Source: Bacillus sp. HMF5848 (GTDB lineage Bacteria > Bacillota > Bacilli > Bacillales > HMF5848). Taken from it: a DNA stretch of 64,000 nucleotides. The stretch's first letter is position 1, and the number at the start of each line of letters is the position of its first letter. Location: the NCBI RefSeq assembly GCF_003944835.1, contig NZ_RWIV01000001.1:1093501-1157500 (forward strand). The letters run 5' to 3'. The position numbers and the translations under genes were made by a program. Under the pieces are notes generated by a model. That model searched no databases, was not told the origin of the DNA, and saw only the letters and a list, made by a program, of their open reading frames with translations. This document shows positions 11,859 to 64,000 of the stretch, piece after piece.

Positions 11859-13283
11859 CTATAGGAGGAACATTGCAAATATTGTTGTTACTATTAGCCC
11901 TATCGTGACTGGCAAGAGGTTTTTGCGAGCTAATTCAAACGGATCCACACCACAAATAGCAGCAGCAGGAATTAAAGCCCATGGTACAAGTGTACCGCCA
12001 CCAACCCAAATCGCTGCGATTTGTCCAAGTGCTGTTAGCGTAGCGGCACTTGTGTCAATGGCTACTGCGAATAATTGAGCAATTGAGCCAGCAAGTGAAA
12101 TGCCAGAAAAGCCTGAACCATCTAACCCTGTAATAGCTCCAACTGTAGTTAACGTAATAGCTCCAACTGTTGCGTTTAAAGGAACATTATTCGCTAATGC
12201 CACACCAAGGTCATTAACAATTCCGTTTGAACCAGCAGGTAAAAACTCTCCGATAATCTTTGTAAAACCAGAGTCGCCCAGATAGAAAAAAGCAGCTATC
12301 GGAATGACAGGTCCAAATACTTTAAATCCAAATTGAAAGCCCTCGATTAAATATTGAGTTGTTTCTTCTAATCCTTTATTCTTATGAGCACTTAAAGCAA
12401 TGATTAACAAAATAAAGATCGACGTTCCTCCAATTAGTGCCGTTGCATCTCCACCTTGTAAGTTAAACGCAAACATAGCCAAAATATTTAATGCAAATAA
12501 AACAGGAATTAGGAGTGCTATTAAACGTTTTGAGTTGGTAGATAATAATTGTTTTAGCTCTTTTTTCTCCTGGTGACTGAGGTCTTCGGTTAGTGGATTT
12601 GTGTGAGGAGAACTATCACCATTTCCTGAAGATAAACGTCCCTTTTTCATATCTCTCCGAAGAAAAATAAATGCCACAACAGTTGTTACAACACCCATCA
12701 CAATAACTAACGGAACACTTGCCGCCACAACATCTTGTACAGGAAGTCCTGCAGCATCTGCTGTTAATTTCGGAGCAGCTTGAATGACGAAATCCCCTGA
12801 TAAGGCTATTCCATGACCAAATAAGTTCATTGCCATAGCCACCCCTAGTGCTGGCAAGCCAACACGAACAGCAACTGGTAGTAAAACAGCACCAAGTAAG
12901 GCAACAGCAGGGGATGGCCAGAAAAACCAAGAGATAACCATCATTAAAATACCAATGACCCAATATGCTAACGCAGGTGTACGGATTAGCTTTGTAAATG
13001 GTGATATCATAACATCATTGACACCTGTTACCGTTAATGCCCTACTCATAGCAACAATAATCGAGATTACAAGAATTGTAGATAGAAGCTCTGTAATAGC
13101 AAAAGCAAAACTATTAAAAATACCACTAACAGAAGAGGTTAAGCTTCCTGTCGCTACAAACGCTAGTAAAAATATTCCGGCTATACATATTAATGTTGTG
13201 TCACGACGGAAAATCATAAAGCCAATGATTAACCCTATAAATATGACGTAAATCCAATGAAGTGCAGTTAATGTCACTAACAC
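11859..13283 (-). CDS. Polytopic permease, ion-transporter (ArsB/NhaD- or DcuC-like) type, substrate unknown
   Basis: 474 residues with about twelve hydrophobic segments in two halves, separated by a charged loop (about residues 205-245, rich in Ser, Glu and Lys). A GTG start at 13283 follows AGGAGG by 9 nt. The two-halves layout and the small-residue re-entrant stretches (FGHGIALSGDFVIQAAP; SGISLAGSIAQLFAVAIDTSAAT) suggest the ion-transporter superfamily. No substrate is evident and no enzyme genes are linked. I recognise the type but not a characterised member. It could be an uptake or an efflux carrier. Confidence 0.65.
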   Translation of the reverse strand: MLVTLTALHWIYVIFIGLIIGFMIFRRDTTLICIAGIFLLAFVATGSLTSSVSGIFNSFAFAITELLSTILVISIIVAMSRALTVTGVNDVMISPFTKLIRTPALAYWVIGILMMVISWFFWPSPAVALLGAVLLPVAVRVGLPALGVAMAMNLFGHGIALSGDFVIQAAPKLTADAAGLPVQDVVAASVPLVIVMGVVTTVVAFIFLRRDMKKGRLSSGNGDSSPHTNPLTEDLSHQEKKELKQLLSTNSKRLIALLIPVLFALNILAMFAFNLQGGDATALIGGTSIFILLIIALSAHKNKGLEETTQYLIEGFQFGFKVFGPVIPIAAFFYLGDSGFTKIIGEFLPAGSNGIVNDLGVALANNVPLNATVGAITLTTVGAITGLDGSGFSGISLAGSIAQLFAVAIDTSAATLTALGQIAAIWVGGGTLVPWALIPAAAICGVDPFELARKNLLPVTIGLIVTTIFAMFLL

Positions 13284-28500: not shown

Positions 28501-28680
28501 GCTCTGTTAAACTTTGTTGTTGATTTTCGCTACATTGCGCTCGCTTTCCGCGGGGTGGCCGTGAGCCTCCTCTGCGCTTTGCGCATGCGGGGTCTCACGA
28601 CTGCCACTACATCCCGCAGGAGTCTCACGCATTTCGCTACTATCAACAATATTCAAAATCAACACTCATCTTTAACAGCG
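28501..28680 (+). repeat. Dispersed ~180-bp Bacillus repeat, copy A
   Basis: The ends form an imperfect terminal inverted repeat (CTGTTAAAC..GTTGATTTT against AAAATCAACA..TTTAACAG). The core carries CGCTTTCCGCGGGG, GAGCCTCCTC, GGTCTCACGACTGCCACTA and CCCGCAGGAGTCT. Copy B lies at 60055-60241 in the opposite orientation. It is non-coding and resembles a repeat scattered through many Bacillus genomes. There is no transposase. Confidence 0.85.
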
Positions 28681-57443: not shown

Positions 57444-58496
57444 TTGACTTTAGGACCTAGAGTTGTTAAAACAGGCATTGCGGTTACGTTGGCATTATAT
57501 ATTTGTTTATATTTTGATTTAACTCCTGCTGTATTCGCGGGCATTGCAGCAATTTTTACAATTCAGCCTTCCATTTATCGGACATGGCGTCAAGTGTTAG
57601 ATCAATTAAAAACAAATACTTTAGGCGCATTGATTGCATTACTTGCCTTGTTTGCATTTGGCAATGAGCCTATTGCAGTCGGTGTCGTTATGATTCTTGT
57701 TATTCTTGTGAGTCTGCAATTAAAAATGGAAAGTACTATTTCGTTAACACTAGTCACGGTGCTTGCGATTATGAGTGCACCCGCACATGAAGAATGGTTT
57801 TTTGCAGCCAATCGCTTTTTGATTATTTTAATCGGGATGCTGTCAGCATCGTTGGTCAATTTATTTGTTTTACCGCCTAAATATTCAATAACATATTTTC
57901 AACAAACGCAAAGTGCTTTCCAAAATTTATCCTTACTTATGCGAACTGCTATTTCGGATGAACTAACTGAAAAGTCATTTCGTTCATATAAAAAGAAGCT
58001 TGAGAAGGATGTTAATAAACTGGACGAGCTTTTTAATATGTTGAATGAAGAACGTGAGAAGCTTTCTAAAGTAAAACCGTTAAACGCGAGAGAGCTTGTT
58101 ATTTTTAAGCAAATGCTATTATCTACAAAACATGGCATTGAGGTACTAGATGTGATAGAGGACCATTATTTTCAAAGTAACCCACAGGATGGTGAAAAGG
58201 AAAGATATGATCAGCATTTAGAGTATTTAATAAAGTGTCACGAGCATTTGCTGTTAAAATATGAGGGCAAAATTAAGGACCGCGATGAGTATTTAGAAGA
58301 TACGATGGTCGAGAAAAGTGCGCAGTTTCTTGAGCAAATTATGCAACAGTATGATGTGGAAAAAGAGGAAACACTTCGCCTAGTTGTAATAGGCTCGTCG
58401 ATCTTTGAATATGCATTAAAGCTAGAGCGTTTAAACGATTTAATTGAGAAATATTTAAAATCAAAATCTGCTGAAAAAAGTGAACTAGCACAATAA
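57444..58496 (+). CDS. FUSC/ArAE-type membrane protein (DUF939), aromatic acid exporter family
   Basis: 350 residues from TTG 57444, 8 nt after AAGGAGG; the ORF extends to 57423 without an SD. About six N-terminal membrane segments (residues 8-145) end with a VLPPKYS stretch. A long, charged, largely helical cytoplasmic domain follows (about 150-345). This is the layout of the YqjA-like DUF939/aromatic acid exporter proteins. It could export phenolic or other organic acids; no direct evidence. A terminator begins at its stop. Confidence 0.8.
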   Translation: MTLGPRVVKTGIAVTLALYICLYFDLTPAVFAGIAAIFTIQPSIYRTWRQVLDQLKTNTLGALIALLALFAFGNEPIAVGVVMILVILVSLQLKMESTISLTLVTVLAIMSAPAHEEWFFAANRFLIILIGMLSASLVNLFVLPPKYSITYFQQTQSAFQNLSLLMRTAISDELTEKSFRSYKKKLEKDVNKLDELFNMLNEEREKLSKVKPLNARELVIFKQMLLSTKHGIEVLDVIEDHYFQSNPQDGEKERYDQHLEYLIKCHEHLLLKYEGKIKDRDEYLEDTMVEKSAQFLEQIMQQYDVEKEETLRLVVIGSSIFEYALKLERLNDLIEKYLKSKSAEKSELAQ

Positions 58497-58538
58497 AAAG
58501 GTGTAGTAAAAAGCTTAGCCATGCATGCTACACCTTTT
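58496..58538 (+). terminator. Terminator after the FUSC gene
   Basis: The arms AAAAGGTGTAG (58496-58506) and CTACACCTTTT (58528-58538) pair perfectly over a 21-nt loop. Confidence 0.75.
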
Positions 58539-58985
58539 GGGTATCATGTTCAGTTCGTATGTAGCTAATTAATGGGAAGAAACGTTGCACAACTAATGGA
58601 AAAAGCCTAATGTCTTAGGCTTAGGCTGCAACTTTATAGCTACATAGCTCACCTCGATAGAATCGCTTTTGTTAGCTTGTGGCGATTTGTGGGAAAAGAG
58701 TAACGGTATGTCGAATAATCACCCCACAACTGTGACTTATAGTCTGACTATACGGATTTATATCCGGGTAAAACTGTCTAAAAATTAAGATTTTGTCTAA
58801 ATGTAGACGGGATTAGTTCTATCAACCTATGTGGTTAAACTTCGGTAAATTGGCCACAGTGATAAAATAAACAGACCTTTTATCCTTTAGATTGGTAAAA
58901 ATTATTAAGTAGAATAGGAAAATAGGTATACAGCTAGAGCGATAGATTTATAAATTTACCTTTTAAAATGATAACAAAAGACGGA
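58539..58985. other. Gene-free region with a nested hairpin, upstream of the riboswitch
   Basis: 58561-58643 folds as three nested arms: GTAGCTA/TAGCTAC, GTTGCA/TGCAAC and AAGCCTAA/TTAGGCTT. The rest (58644-58985) is AT-rich, with small palindromes and no coding frame with an SD. Confidence 0.5.
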
Positions 58986-59014
58986 TTACTTTTTGTCAAA
59001 ATACATACTATTAT
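58986..59014 (+). promoter_or_regulatory. Candidate promoter for the riboswitch-Tad transcript
   Basis: TTACTT, a 17-bp spacer and TATTAT (59009-59014), ending about 40 bp before the aptamer. The -35 is poor, so other placements are possible. Confidence 0.3.
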
Positions 59015-59055
59015 GTAAGCAAGAGATCAGTCGGACAAACAAATATGCCACTGAA

Positions 59056-59152
59056 TCTCGATAAAGGCAAAGCTGATGAAAATCAGTGACGCAAAGCTAC
59101 AGGGGCTAACGTGCGAATACGCACTATGCCAGCCAGTTACCGAAAGATACAG
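59056..59152 (+). ncRNA. Cyclic di-GMP-I (GEMM-I) riboswitch aptamer
   Basis: The conserved elements occur in order. There is an AAAGGCAAAGC junction. A P2 hairpin GCTGAT-GAAA-ATCAGT carries the GAAA tetraloop. The invariant GACGCAAAGC follows. The P3 tetraloop receptor is GGGGCTAAC..TATGCCAGCC, with a GTGCG-AATA-CGCAC arm. The closing AGCCAGTTACCGA comes last. P1 can pair the ATCT..CG before the aptamer with CGAAAGAT after it. All ligand-contacting positions that I can map from the Vc2 aptamer (junction G, central A, distal C) appear present. A terminator follows 64 nt later and the Tad pilus genes lie downstream. Confidence 0.93.
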
Positions 59153-59157
59153 GGTGG

Positions 59158-59247
59158 ATCGTTTTTACATAGTGAAAATTTTATGGAATTTTCTTTGTGG
59201 AACGATTATTGCAGTAACCCCCTTTCGGTGAAGGCGGGGTTTATTTT
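59158..59247 (+). terminator. Riboswitch expression platform: long hairpin plus intrinsic terminator
   Basis: First, an AT-rich hairpin joins ATCGTT (59158-59163) with AACGAT (59201-59206), with GAAAATT/AATTTTC inside. Then the stem AACCCCCTTTC (59216-59226) pairs with GAAGG-c-GGGGTT (59230-59241), followed by TATTTTC. It lies between the aptamer and the first gene, so termination probably depends on c-di-GMP. The direction of switching cannot be read with certainty. Confidence 0.75.
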
Positions 59248-59273
59248 CGTTGTGGGAAATGGAGGTGGAACGT

Positions 59274-59624
59274 TTGCAGATAATCAACCTGAGTAATGAA
59301 CGGATATTAGCAGAAGAAGTTGAGACAGCGTATAGTTTTTTTAAACGATTAAAAGGCCTTATGTTTACGGATCAGTTAAGCTCGGGTTGTGCAATACACA
59401 TCAAACCCTGTCGGTCGATTCACTCATTTTTTATGAACTATCCTATTGATGTATTGTACGTTAACGATGATGGGATTATTGTCGCGCTGGAGGAAGGCTT
59501 TGAGCCAGGTCAAGTAGGACGAAGATTTGCAGATGCACATTCAGTTGTGGAGCTTCCAGTTGAAACAATTCAAAACACGAACACTCAAGTAGGACATAAA
59601 ATCGAATTAAGGAGAGGGTTATAA
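59274..59624 (+). CDS. DUF192 protein at the head of the Tad operon
   Basis: 116 residues from TTG 59274, behind GGAGGTGG. It reads RLKGLMFTDQLSSGCAIHIKPCRSIHSFFMNYPIDVLYVNDDG, then EPGQ and VVELPVETI, the DUF192 pattern. There is no signal peptide. DUF192 domains are often found near pilus or secretion genes; their function is unknown. The stop overlaps the first pilin start, so the two are translationally coupled, and this is the first gene behind the riboswitch. Confidence 0.85.
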   Translation: MQIINLSNERILAEEVETAYSFFKRLKGLMFTDQLSSGCAIHIKPCRSIHSFFMNYPIDVLYVNDDGIIVALEEGFEPGQVGRRFADAHSVVELPVETIQNTNTQVGHKIELRRGL

Positions 59625-59815
59625 TGATGAACAAATTAAAAGGATTAGTAGTAGAAGAGCAAGGACAAGGTATGACTGAATACGGACTAGTTTTAGGTGT
59701 TATCGCAGTAGGTGTTGTTGCAATCTTAGCTACATTACGTACTCAAATTGAAGCAATGTTCAACAATGTTGTAAATACTATTACAGGTAACGGCAACGGC
59801 GGAACTACTCTGTAA
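59624..59815 (+). CDS. Flp-type (class IVb) major pilin 1
   Basis: 63 residues. A prepilin leader MMNKLKGLVVEEQG is cut after Gly14 to give QGMTEYGLV. Glu at +5 and Tyr at +6 are the Flp signature. A hydrophobic helix (about 21-42) and a short Gly/Asn-rich tail follow. AAGGAGAGGG precedes it. The subunits form the Tad pilus fibre after processing by TadV. ATG 59627 is an alternative start. Confidence 0.93.
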   Translation: MMNKLKGLVVEEQGQGMTEYGLVLGVIAVGVVAILATLRTQIEAMFNNVVNTITGNGNGGTTL

Positions 59816-59822
59816 TAAGCCA

Positions 59823-59993
59823 ATGATTAAAAACCTAATATTACAAGAGAACGGTCAAGGTACAGTTGAGTACGGATTAGTATTAGGTGTGTTAGTTATA
59901 GCTGCAGTAGGTATCATACCGGCATTAGTACCTATTATTGAAAATCTTTTTAGATCCATTGCAGATGCAGTCGAAGCGCAAGTTAACCTATGA
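59823..59993 (+). CDS. Flp-type pilin 2
   Basis: 56 residues: leader MIKNLILQENG, cut after Gly11, then QGTVEYGLVLGVLVIAAVG. Glu +5 and Tyr +6 are kept. It starts 7 bp after the first pilin stop with no recognisable SD, so it is likely translated by coupling, at lower level. It is clearly a paralogue of pilin 1 with the same GLVLGV core but a different C-terminus (FRSIADAVEAQVNL). It could be a minor or adhesive subunit. Confidence 0.9.
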   Translation: MIKNLILQENGQGTVEYGLVLGVLVIAAVGIIPALVPIIENLFRSIADAVEAQVNL

Positions 59994-60018
59994 TGTGTAA
60001 ATAATGTATTTTGGAGAT

Positions 60019-60048
60019 AAGCCCTTGTTATAACGCAAGGGCTTTAAT
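60019..60048 (+). terminator. Terminator after the pilin genes
   Basis: A 9-bp stem AAGCCCTTG / CAAGGGCTT with an 8-nt loop, then TTAATTG. The T run is short, so some read-through to tadV is plausible. Confidence 0.75.
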
Positions 60049-60054
60049 TGTAAG

Positions 60055-60241
60055 GCTGTGTTAAAGGTGAATGTTGATTTTTTGTTTAATTTTGATTGCA
60101 GCGGAATGCACGAGACTCCTGCGGGAAATGGAAATAGTGGCAGTCGTGAGACCCCGCAAGGCAAAGCCTGAGGAGGCTTACGGCCACCCCGCGGAAAGCG
60201 AGTGCAATGGAGTGAAAATCAACACCGAAGTTTAACAGAGC
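60055..60241 (-). repeat. Dispersed ~180-bp Bacillus repeat, copy B
   Basis: It is the reverse-complement partner of 28501-28680, with the same CGCTTTCCGCGGGG, GGTCTCACGACTGCCACTA and CCCGCAGGAGTCT blocks and the GTTGATTTT / TTTAACAG ends. It separates the pilin genes from tadV. Confidence 0.85.
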
Positions 60242-60281
60242 GAATTGTAAAAAATTACCCCGAAAGAGAGGGGCGGTTAAC

Positions 60282-60794
60282 ATGTTTGTAAATGTTTTGT
60301 TGTTTTCGTTGGTCATTATTTGTACGTATACAGACTTGAAATCTAGAAAAATATATAACGTCATTATTTTTCCAACTTTATTAATAGCATTAACAAGTCA
60401 TCTAGTAACAGGTGGTCTTAGCGGATTCTTATCTTCATTAGGAGGATTTGCTGTTGGACTAGCAATCTTATTAATTCCATATTTTCTCGGTGGTATGGGA
60501 GCGGGAGACGTGAAGCTTCTTGCTGTCATAGGTGCGTTAAAAGGGACGGCATTTGTCCTTCATACAGCGATATATATGGGGTTAGTTGGTGGCGTTCTAG
60601 CTATATTTGTTCTCTTATTTCACAAAAATATCGCTATGCGATTGAAGGTTGTCGTGTATAAGTTAGTAGGGGTGAAAATTCCTCTTGCATTAGGAGAAGA
60701 CGCGCGAAAGGCGAAGTATCCGTATGGAGTCGCTATTGCTGCTGGTGCTTGTATGGCTTTCTTTTTCAATCATATTGTATTAATAAACTTTTAA
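60282..60794 (+). CDS. tadV: Prepilin peptidase TadV/CpaA
   Basis: 170 residues with about five membrane segments. The two catalytic aspartates of A24 peptidases are Asp18 (YTDLKSRKI) and Asp76 (GMGAGDVKL). It lacks the N-terminal methylase domain, as is normal for TadV. It cleaves the Flp pilins and probably TadE-like pseudopilins. It is preceded by GAGAGGGGCGG and starts the second segment of the Tad locus. Confidence 0.93.
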   Translation: MFVNVLLFSLVIICTYTDLKSRKIYNVIIFPTLLIALTSHLVTGGLSGFLSSLGGFAVGLAILLIPYFLGGMGAGDVKLLAVIGALKGTAFVLHTAIYMGLVGGVLAIFVLLFHKNIAMRLKVVVYKLVGVKIPLALGEDARKAKYPYGVAIAAGACMAFFFNHIVLINF

Positions 60795-60821
60795 CTATCG
60801 AATCACTTGGAGTGAATGTTC

Positions 60822-61205
60822 ATGATCAAAGATGAAAAAGGTCAATCATTAGTTGAGATGGCACTCATTGTTCCTTTGTTATTATTACTTTTAGTGGGCA
60901 TTATCGATCTTGGGAGAGTGCTATACTCCTATACTCATATACAGTTAGCAACACAAGAAACGGTGCGCCTTGGAGGGTTAGGCGGAAGTGACAGTGAGTT
61001 AGTCACATTCGCGAAGCAGTACGTCCATATCGGAGATCCCGCGAAGCTTCAAGTGACGATTACACCTGATGATGTAACAAGAATGTCTGGGGAGTACATG
61101 ACGGTAACGCTACAGTATCCTATTGAGTTAATGACTCCGTTTCTATCTTCACTATTGCCTTCTCCGATGAACATAATAACAGACTCGACGATACGAGTTG
61201 AGTGA
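60822..61205 (+). CDS. tadE: TadE-like pseudopilin
   Basis: 127 residues from ATG 60822, 6 nt after GGAGTGA; ATG 60816 abuts the SD. The N-terminus DEKGQSLVEMALIVPLLLLLLVG gives a G-QSLVE processing site with Glu at +5 and a following membrane helix, the TadE signature. The rest is a small extracellular domain. It is a minor pilin of the Tad machine. It overlaps the TadG frame slightly upstream of that gene's SD. Confidence 0.9.
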   Translation: MIKDEKGQSLVEMALIVPLLLLLLVGIIDLGRVLYSYTHIQLATQETVRLGGLGGSDSELVTFAKQYVHIGDPAKLQVTITPDDVTRMSGEYMTVTLQYPIELMTPFLSSLLPSPMNIITDSTIRVE

Positions 61206-61216
61206 GGTGTCGTCAT

Positions 61217-62140
61217 ATGTGGATTTCCCGAATTAAATCATGTATCAACGAGCAGCATGGTAACGCACTTGTACTCATGTCGCTAGCTTTATCGGCTTTA
61301 TTATGTATAACTGGCTTGGTTATGGATGGTGGGACGATCTATTACACGAGAGCGCACTTACAGAAGGTAGCCAATGCTTCAGCACTGTCGGGTGCACAAG
61401 AACTTATGAATAGCACGCAAGCAGCGGAAGACGTTGCGAAAGAGGTGTTATTTAGGCACGAAGAGACTAGTAGTTTAAAAAGTATTACCTTTAATGAGCC
61501 AAGTATCTTTGAAGTGAATCTTGAAAAAGATGTAAGTTTAAATTTTGCTAAATTATTTGGCCGCGATACCGTTCCTGTTAATGCTACCGCTCGCGCGCAA
61601 TATGGGAACGCTGGCGTTGTAAAAGGTGTCGCGCCTATAGGTATAGATGAACGTTTTACGTTTCAATATATGCAGGAATATGAATTGAAAACCGATACAG
61701 ACGGTGTCGATACAGGCTGGTTCGGTGTGTTGGCTCTAGGTGGGCCTGGTGCTGCTACATATTACGATAATATGCGTTATGGTTATTCAAGTGCCATACG
61801 TGTAGGCGATGTAATTGAAACGGAAACAGGAAACATCGCCGGGAAAACTCGAACCGCCGTAAAAGAACGTATTGACAATTGCTCCTATTCATTTGAGGAA
61901 GGAGTAAAGAGAAATTGCTCTAGAGTCATATTAGTACCTGTATATGAACCGTATGAATATGATAACCAAGGGCAAATCAAGCAGGTAGAGATTAAAGGAT
62001 TTGCTTACTTTTATATAACAGGATTAATAAGCAGCAATGACACAGCCATTCGTGGTTTGTTTTTAAAAAGAGTTGTGCAAGGCGAGATATTAGAGACAGC
62101 GGTTGATCGTGGGGTTTACGCCTTACGATTAGTAGAATAA
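61217..62140 (+). CDS. TadG-like pilus assembly protein (DUF2134 type)
   Basis: 307 residues from ATG 61217, 6 nt after GAGGTG; the frame extends to 61202 without a site. It starts with INEQHGNALVLMSLALSALLCITGLVMDGG, a TadG-type membrane helix, then the IYYTRAHLQKVANASALSGAQEL helix common to Tad minor pilins. A large extracellular domain has two Cys (NCSYSFEEGVKRNC). It is exported and could sit at the tip or base of the pilus. Confidence 0.87.
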   Translation: MWISRIKSCINEQHGNALVLMSLALSALLCITGLVMDGGTIYYTRAHLQKVANASALSGAQELMNSTQAAEDVAKEVLFRHEETSSLKSITFNEPSIFEVNLEKDVSLNFAKLFGRDTVPVNATARAQYGNAGVVKGVAPIGIDERFTFQYMQEYELKTDTDGVDTGWFGVLALGGPGAATYYDNMRYGYSSAIRVGDVIETETGNIAGKTRTAVKERIDNCSYSFEEGVKRNCSRVILVPVYEPYEYDNQGQIKQVEIKGFAYFYITGLISSNDTAIRGLFLKRVVQGEILETAVDRGVYALRLVE

Positions 62141-62163
62141 GACTGAAGTGAGTAGGTGAAAGT

Positions 62164-62868
62164 ATGAGGTCGAAGGTCATATTATTTTTAGCCTTAGTGA
62201 TGGGACTTGTAACAACCTTTCTATTTTATAACTATATGAAACAATTTGATAGTGAAGCAACTGTAGCAGAAGTATTAACAGAAGTAGTAGTAGCAAAAGT
62301 GGATATACTAGAAAACCAGCGCATCACGTCAGACATGATTGAATTAAAAAGTGTACCTGAGCTTGGTGTGCACCAGAATAGTATTACAGATTTATCTGAG
62401 CTTTCCGATATGTATGCAACTGGCCACATTGCTGCAGGAGAGCCGATATTAACAAATAGAGTGAGTTCAGAGCAACAGGAGTCGTTATTTGTATCTCGAA
62501 AAGTACGGGATGGATACCGTGCTGTATCAGTCGGTGTTAACTTTGTTCAATCGGTATCTAACTTAATAGAACCAGAGGACGAGGTTGATGTTATTTTTAC
62601 CGAAGGGATACCAAAGCCTGATGGCACGCAGGAATTCATATCAAAAACAATCTTAGAAAAAGCACGTGTGTTAGCTATTGGACGTAAAATGCTCCCAACC
62701 GTTGAAGGGGCAGAAGAGGAGTATGTTGAATATTCATCCGTTACGGTTGAATTAGTACCAAACGATGCATTAAAACTAGTAAATGCGTCCGAGCGTGGAT
62801 CTATCCAATTTATTCTACATACGAGATTGATATCGCCGGAAACTGATGCGGCTGCTTCCGGCAAGTAG
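62164..62868 (+). CDS. cpaB: CpaB/RcpC-like Tad assembly protein (SAF domain)
   Basis: 234 residues. An N-terminal membrane helix (about 4-24) precedes a SAF domain: VVVAKVDILENQRITSDMIELKSVP, ATGHIAAGEPILTNRV. A beta-rich region with RKVRDGYRAVSVGV and PEDEVDVIFTEG follows. This matches CpaB/RcpC, the periplasmic or extracellular partner of the Tad apparatus. In Gram-positives without a secretin it probably organises the cell-wall passage. Confidence 0.88.
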   Translation: MRSKVILFLALVMGLVTTFLFYNYMKQFDSEATVAEVLTEVVVAKVDILENQRITSDMIELKSVPELGVHQNSITDLSELSDMYATGHIAAGEPILTNRVSSEQQESLFVSRKVRDGYRAVSVGVNFVQSVSNLIEPEDEVDVIFTEGIPKPDGTQEFISKTILEKARVLAIGRKMLPTVEGAEEEYVEYSSVTVELVPNDALKLVNASERGSIQFILHTRLISPETDAAASGK

Positions 62869-62891
62869 TCCAGGAAGCGGAGGTGATGATA

Positions 62892-63728
62892 ATGACTGAG
62901 GATTCTCAAACAACAAGAAAAAAACGTGGCGAAATGATAGTTGTATGTAGTGCCAAAGGTGGAGCGGGACGCACCATTATGACTGTTAATCTAGCTGTTT
63001 CCTTATTTAAAAAGAATATATCGGTTTGTATTGTAGATGGAGACTTCCAATTTGGTGATATTAGCTTAGCAATGGATTTGCACCCAACGTTTTCCATACA
63101 TGATGTGATTGAAGAGTTCGATAGAATAGACGAATATTCGTTGGCAGGCATGCTTTGTAGTCATGAAAGTGGTGTAAAGGTTTTGCCCGCTCCAGAAAGA
63201 CCGGAGTATGCTGAGCTTGTTACGCAAGACAAGTTATGTAAGATTCTTGATATGCTTTTACTACAGCATGATTATGTGGTAGTTGATACTGGCGTGGGTT
63301 TAGGTGATATGTCGCTACAAATGATTGAGAAGGCCGACCAAGTATTAGTCCTAACAAATCTTGAAATGGCCACCTTGAAAAATTCGAAGCTCATGATTGA
63401 AACGTTAGATGTACTAGGGTTTAAAGATAAAGTTCAAACCATTGTCAATCGTGCCACGATGGAAAGTGTCATCGGAGCTTCCGATGTCCCAGATATTTTA
63501 GGTGTTGACCAACCTATTTATATTCCTAATGATTTTCAAATAGCATCGCAATCACTAAACATAGGCATTCCATTTGTGATCAATCAAGGAAAAACAGAAT
63601 TAGCTAAAGCAGTATTTAAAATGGCAGAACAGCTAACAACGCGACGTGAAATCACCCCGATACATGGGAAAGAAGCTTCAATCATGTCTAAGCTTTTTGG
63701 ACGTAGGAAAGTAAGGGAGGGCACATAA
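62892..63728 (+). CDS. tadZ: TadZ/CpaE-like ParA-family ATPase
   Basis: 278 residues from ATG 62892, 6 nt after GGAGGTGA. The deviant Walker A is KGGAGRT (residues 22-28), where Arg27 replaces the usual second Lys. VDGDFQFGDISLAMDL and DYVVVDTGVGLGDMS follow. TadZ/CpaE places the Tad machine at a cell site. There is no N-terminal receiver domain, unlike many CpaE proteins. It ends 1 bp before the TadA start. Confidence 0.9.
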   Translation: MTEDSQTTRKKRGEMIVVCSAKGGAGRTIMTVNLAVSLFKKNISVCIVDGDFQFGDISLAMDLHPTFSIHDVIEEFDRIDEYSLAGMLCSHESGVKVLPAPERPEYAELVTQDKLCKILDMLLLQHDYVVVDTGVGLGDMSLQMIEKADQVLVLTNLEMATLKNSKLMIETLDVLGFKDKVQTIVNRATMESVIGASDVPDILGVDQPIYIPNDFQIASQSLNIGIPFVINQGKTELAKAVFKMAEQLTTRREITPIHGKEASIMSKLFGRRKVREGT

Positions 63729-63729
63729 A

Positions 63730-64000
63730 ATGAGTTTGTTGTCGCGCATTCAAGAAAAGAAACCTCCTATGGAAGCTGAACTAGAACGTGAGGTTCAATA
63801 TGAGCCACAAGCGCAAATACCGAAAAAAGACTTAATGGCGGCGTTTCGAGATACCCGCCGTAAGGAAGACTCAAGGCAAAAAAGCAAGTATGCCAAAGGT
63901 GATAAGCACCAGGAGTTAAAAAATGAGCTGCACAAGCTTATTTTACAAGAAGTAAAAGATGATAATTTAGAAGATATTCTACCTAAACTCGATAGTATGG
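63730..64000 (+). CDS. tadA: Tad secretion ATPase TadA/CpaF, N-terminus (cut off by window)
   Basis: Only the first 90 residues are visible. ATG 63730 follows GGGAGGG. The piece is charged and low-complexity (MSLLSRIQEKKPPMEAEL, then DTRRKEDSRQK), then begins the helical N-domain seen before the ATPase (ELKNELHKLILQEV). No nucleotide motifs are reached. Assignment rests on position after tadZ in a Tad locus. Confidence 0.75.
   Translation, partial: MSLLSRIQEKKPPMEAELEREVQYEPQAQIPKKDLMAAFRDTRRKEDSRQKSKYAKGDKHQELKNELHKLILQEVKDDNLEDILPKLDSM

Follow-up and report, generated by a model that had tools for sequence, protein, structure and literature searches.

A predicted c-di-GMP-I OFF riboswitch precedes the Tad pilus operon of Bacillus sp. 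HMF5848 and its relatives

The leader of the Tad pilus operon in Bacillus sp. HMF5848 is probably a transcription-terminating c-di-GMP-I (GEMM-I) riboswitch, which, according to sequence complementarity and folding models, would turn the operon OFF at high c-di-GMP. The window analysed here is a stretch of 64,000 nt of contig NZ_RWIV01000001.1 (positions 1,093,501 to 1,157,500 of the forward strand), and coordinates given without a locus label are those of the window. The type of riboswitch is canonical, and what sets this leader apart is its target class together with the predicted direction. No description of a GEMM or c-di-GMP riboswitch on Tad/Flp pili was found in the open-access literature and, because our literature search covered open-access papers only, we claim no priority for Tad under GEMM-I.

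A complete GEMM-I aptamer and a terminator precede the Tad genes

The aptamer (59056–59144, + strand) matched Rfam family RF01051 with 82.5 bits against a gathering score of 35 (E 9.8e-15), spanned model positions 1–87 of 87 and was the sole Rfam match in the whole window. The covariance-model search proposed in the original prediction thus placed the GEMM-I element above the family threshold and at full length, as had been claimed from the letters alone. The 5′ strand of P1, UCUCG (59056–59060, +), pairs with CG(AA)AGA on the 3′ side of the aptamer, and the GAAA loop (the GNRA tetraloop of P2) and the conserved junction bases, with GGC and ACCG, were seen in the RF01051 alignment. The aptamer carries a G at the position of Vc2 G20 and a C at that of C92. 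We take the former to predict c-di-GMP rather than cGAMP as the ligand, and through the C92-equivalent residue the CCG strand of P1 is presumably also part of the ligand site. Since the genome holds 10 GEMM-I aptamers and 24 GGDEF matches in total, c-di-GMP is almost certainly made in the cell. A MIR827 match in L009, the locus record in which the operon was followed past the window end, scored under its gathering score and was ignored.

An intrinsic terminator consisting of a hairpin and a U-tract (59216–59247, +; hairpin AACCCCCUUUCGGUGAAGGCGGGGUU) lies between the aptamer and the first gene, as originally proposed, and Pfam matches together with a pilin motif confirmed the predicted gene order on the + strand, with tadB and tadC beyond the window. 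The DUF192 gene (59274–59624; PF02643, 59.7 bits) most likely starts at the TTG at 59274, after the Shine-Dalgarno sequence GGAGGT (59261–59266). It is followed by Flp pilin 1 (59624–59815; PF04964, 27.9 bits, just below the 32.2 cut-off) and Flp pilin 2 (59823–59993; sequence GQGTVEYGLVLGVL), which gave no Pfam match and carries the same GQG-EYGLVLG motif as pilin 1. Next come the prepilin peptidase gene tadV (60282–60794; PF01478, 66.4 bits), tadE (60816–61205; PF07811, 55.1 bits), a tadG-like gene (61202–62140; PF13400, 35.8 bits), cpaB/rcpC (62164–62868; PF16976, 83.1 bits) and the ParA/MinD-type tadZ (62883–63728; AAA_31/ParA), which served as the marker for locus searches. The window end cuts tadA (63730–64000; T2SSE, 229 bits), which encodes 476 aa in L009:7231–8661; tadB (L009:8649–9620) starts just past the window end, and tadC (L009:9610–10551) is the last gene of the operon. 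One gene run therefore holds an Flp pilin, TadV, TadE/G, CpaB, TadZ, TadA, TadB and TadC. No gene for the outer-membrane secretin RcpA/CpaC was found between the aptamer and tadC, which is no argument against membership in the Tad family because the secretin is a diderm-only feature whose absence is expected in a monoderm.

A further hairpin with a weak U-tail (AAGCCCUUG-UUAUAACG-CAAGGGCUU; 60019–60044, +) follows the pilin genes and recurred between flp and tadV in 66 of 85 loci. In a set preselected for pairing, hairpins of this AGCCUUACGU...ACGUAAGGCU type showed two-sided change in 10 of 12 pairs. The element is likely an attenuator or a stabiliser of the mRNA 3′ end, and it probably sets the ratio of pilin to machinery. 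The interval between flp and tadV also contains a structured repeat of about 130 nt (60098–60230), the core of which, GAGACTCCTGCGGGA, occurs in seven copies in the genome, two of them in the window (the second at 28612–28626). About 8 kb downstream of tadC lies a gene for an HD-domain protein (HD_5; L009:18415–19545), likely an HD-GYP c-di-GMP phosphodiesterase.

The aptamer is kept upstream of tad across Bacillales and Paenibacillales

Two samples of relatives were surveyed. For the order sample, 299 genomes were searched with the TadZ of the window and with RF01051, and 60 Tad loci were fetched and scanned with a covariance model of our own building; the eight loci rechecked with Rfam were all positive. 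Among the fetched loci with a close TadZ (at least 46% identity), the aptamer was located upstream on the same strand in 35 of 36, in addition to the window itself. The one locus without it, L043, carries a transposase-like gene a few kilobases ahead of DUF192. The close-TadZ loci of this sample represent 15 GTDB families. Neither of the two loci with a more distant TadZ (43–44% identity) had the aptamer, which was present in 5 of 22 loci of a second TadZ class. One locus of that class (L058) has two aptamers (11936–12030 and 12349–12441, − strand), each directly before its own flp gene and with its own terminator.

The scan of named genomes comprised 75 loci, from which five with too little upstream DNA and two that were not Tad were left out, and detected the aptamer in 60 of the 68 evaluable Tad loci. 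Genera with the aptamer included Salirhabdus, Rossellomorea, Fictibacillus, Halobacillus, Anoxybacillus, Anaerobacillus, Mesobacillus, Neobacillus, Evansella, Alkalibacillus, Paenibacillus and Cohnella. Over the two overlapping samples, about 95 loci from at least 15 GTDB families had both an aptamer and a terminator ahead of the tad genes; the samples share species, and the 102 leaders collapsed to 86 distinct ones. The aptamer begins with UCUCG in 69 of these 86, together with CGAAAGA or CGAAGGA. It was always on the same strand as tadZ, at a distance of 2.7–4.0 kb, with an Flp-type ORF downstream in 86 of 86 loci and a relative of DUF192 in 79 of 86. Because a genome of roughly 4 Mb contained at most about 14 GEMM-I elements (RF01051 search of the order sample), this co-location is beyond chance. 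The over-threshold aptamer and the retention of aptamer and terminator in these loci support the proposal that a c-di-GMP riboswitch gates Tad transcription.

A conserved promoter region (58963–59014, +) is composed of an A-rich element, GACGGATT (58980–58987) and a −10 box TATTAT (59009–59014), and no recognisable −35 was found within it. A −10-like box TAT(G/T)AT with upstream AAAA and GGATT was kept in 66 of the 86 leaders, mostly 37–55 nt upstream of the aptamer. The sequence AGATCAGTCGGA (59024–59035), between promoter and aptamer, was likewise kept in many tad leaders. The original prediction had named a promoter between the terminator and the DUF192 gene as a competing source of Tad transcription; no promoter-like excess was seen there, and 58480–60400 contained four promoter-like sites versus 6.3 expected. 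The idea of a Spo0A-box promoter stayed a weak lead: TGTCRAA, on either strand, occurred in 11 of 86 leaders versus 2.6 expected from mononucleotide shuffles and had no fixed position.

The 3′ strand of the aptamer is complementary to the terminator

The sequence CCGAAAG (59140–59146, +), at the 3′ end of the aptamer and part of the P1 helix that ligand stabilises, is the exact complement of CUUUCGG (59222–59228, +) in the terminator, and a second helix can form between GGGU (59152–59155) and ACCC (59217–59220). The 5′ strands of the putative antiterminator are thus the 3′ strand and tail of the aptamer (59140–59155), and its 3′ strands lie in the terminator, in the 5′ arm and the loop. The CCGAAAG/CUUUCGG core was complete, 7/7, in 75 of the 86 distinct leaders, as against 12% of shuffled regions, and GGG or GGGU, paired with CCC or ACCC, usually came next as a second short helix. 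In most leaders the terminator 5′ arm and loop read CUUUCGGU, and the CGG of the loop was kept in 82 of 86 leaders although it is unpaired within the terminator. The UUUCGG motif is specific to tad leaders: of the 34 terminators detected in them, 33 contained it, versus 6 of 486 other terminator-like hairpins on the same contigs.

Similar complementarity was detected in leaders of unrelated sequence. In L139, AAGGUUUGAG pairs with CUCAUACCUU (p 0.004 versus shuffled arms), and in loci of the second Tad class CCGAAAAUAGU pairs with ACUAUUCUUCGG (p 0.000–0.026); for L059, a locus of that class, the pairing was not significant (p 0.096). Judged by these pairings, two sequence-unrelated solutions keep the same predicted antiterminator logic. 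Fictibacillus-type leaders (L027, L029 and L088) keep the antiterminator complement without a good terminator. When the duplex energy of the aptamer tail was tested without restriction over the 156 nt downstream, the result did not discriminate (median z −1.7). Chance duplexes with purine-rich Shine-Dalgarno regions and within long flanks are the probable cause, and the core-helix and terminator-restricted tests were used in its place. An alternative pairing of the aptamer tail with a conserved 5′ element, AGAUCAGUCGGA, was recognised by eye in some leaders and was absent in others.

Folding models point to ligand-induced termination

When the transcript was folded up to a point just after the terminator loop, the antiterminator was dominant in 75 of 84 leaders; when the full leader was folded with the CCG strand blocked, the terminator was dominant in 79 of 84. 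As a proxy for the ligand we used an assumed stabilising bonus on two P1 pairs, uncalibrated on a switch of known direction, and with this bonus the terminator became more probable in 46 of 81 leaders and less probable in one. For the leader of the window the modelled probability rose from 0.16 to 0.99. A contrast run on a leader of the same genome (L016) was uninformative, with a terminator probability near 0 whether or not the bonus was applied. Several leaders of Cohnella and Paenibacillus (L118, L104, L107) folded poorly into the antiterminator. Even in the absence of ligand, the terminator was the favoured equilibrium fold of about half of the leaders (median P 0.74), so that switching would depend on co-transcriptional kinetics. 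At the level of sequence and folding models, the strand that the ligand would sequester is the antiterminator strand, which is the arrangement of an OFF platform.

Based on these models we propose the following sequence of events. Transcription would start about 35–40 nt ahead of the aptamer. As long as no ligand is bound, the 3′ strand of the aptamer (CCGAAAG, followed by GGGU) would pair with the nascent terminator at its 5′ arm and loop (ACCC and CUUUCGG), and this pairing would block the terminator and allow read-through into DUF192-flp-flp-tadV-tadE-tadG-cpaB-tadZ-tadA-tadB-tadC, for which we infer a single transcript extending to tadC. With ligand bound, the junction would hold CCG in P1 (UCUCG / CG-AA-AGA), which would leave the arm of the terminator free, and transcription would end ahead of DUF192.

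Alternative readings and relation to known c-di-GMP switches

The opposite direction, in which the ligand-bound aptamer favours read-through and c-di-GMP induces Tad pili, appears unlikely, even though it would fit the physiological expectation that c-di-GMP promotes attachment and would have parallels in the class II switches on the type IV pili of C. difficile and in Bc2 on the Cap adhesin of B. thuringiensis, a class I switch that is ON (PMC4933901). The tad terminator, however, is a separate hairpin about 20–110 nt downstream of the aptamer, its 5′ arm complements the strand that ligand sequesters, and stabilisation of P1 made the terminator more probable in 46 of the 81 modelled leaders and less probable in one. 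The original prediction left the direction undecided. Its central point, gating by the leader, is supported, and the implied role of c-di-GMP in promoting pili and attachment is modified, as the conserved antiterminator predicts OFF. We consider it slightly less likely still that the aptamer binds c-di-GMP with little natural effect on expression, the terminator being a fixed attenuator and regulation residing in an upstream promoter. Bc1, another Bacillus class I switch, binds its ligand with expression unchanged (PMC11218506), many tad leaders have strong terminators, and the conserved promoter region includes an unexplained upstream element. Against such a passive role stands the retention across many genera of the aptamer and of its complementarity to the terminator, including loop positions that are idle in the terminator itself.

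The preferred reading, a class I switch that would terminate transcription on ligand binding, resembles Cd1 in the flgB leader of C. difficile, a class I OFF switch of a Gram-positive that terminates transcription on ligand binding but controls flagella rather than pili (PMC6366702). All functional class I c-di-GMP switches of C. difficile are OFF and act by termination, whereas its type IV pili are turned on via a class II switch (PMC6366702). That switch, Cdi-2-4 (pilA1), also is a c-di-GMP riboswitch before a type IV filament operon, but it is class II and ON and serves type IV pili (pilA1) instead of Tad, in contrast to the class I, predicted-OFF tad leader (PMC6366702). Bc2 shares with the tad leader a class I aptamer and a terminator before a surface-adhesion gene in a member of the Bacillaceae, and differs in its ON direction and in its target gene, cap (PMC4933901). 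In Actinobacteria such as Micrococcus luteus and Bifidobacterium, monoderms as well, Tad/Flp (type IVc) pili likewise combine an Flp pilin with two platform paralogues (PMC6916266); the open-access papers searched showed no riboswitch control of these pili.

Across Bacillales and Paenibacillales, we lean towards a view of Tad pili as a low-c-di-GMP organelle. In this view a GEMM-I OFF switch retained in many relatives would shut the pilus operon when c-di-GMP rises, and further GEMM-I switches of the cell (e.g. on sinI) would turn matrix production on. If this is true, Tad would be wired like the flagella of C. difficile and unlike its type IV pili, the c-di-GMP induction of which is opposite to the OFF prediction made here. 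The predicted phenotype, pili off at high c-di-GMP, is clear and unexpected. Tad pili of the Bacillus type have apparently barely been studied, and one leader kept across many genera offers a handle on the timing of their production.

Other GEMM-I aptamers of the genome

A GEMM-I aptamer also precedes, by 24 nt, a SinI gene (PF08671, 36.8 bits) that neighbours a SinR-like gene (L018:5059–5348, − strand; genome C1:1217058–1217347, about 60 kb past the window). In the fold model the sinI Shine-Dalgarno sequence was sequestered without ligand, and its mean unpaired probability changed from 0.05 to 0.51 with the bonus; this leader is predicted to be a translational ON switch. Of 30 SinI-domain loci, 17 had an aptamer, a weak one in two cases. 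Control of sinI by a c-di-GMP riboswitch has already been listed in B. methanolicus (PMC4342826), which rules it out as a new finding. The aptamers of L010, L014, L015 and L017, from the same genome, precede very small ORFs (about 35–60 aa) with good Shine-Dalgarno sites. Another, within the stretch L011:3960–7877 (− strand), is situated between pelF-pelG and a glycoside-hydrolase gene, and the position of its terminator 5′ arm inside the likely P1 3′ strand suggests an ON switch.
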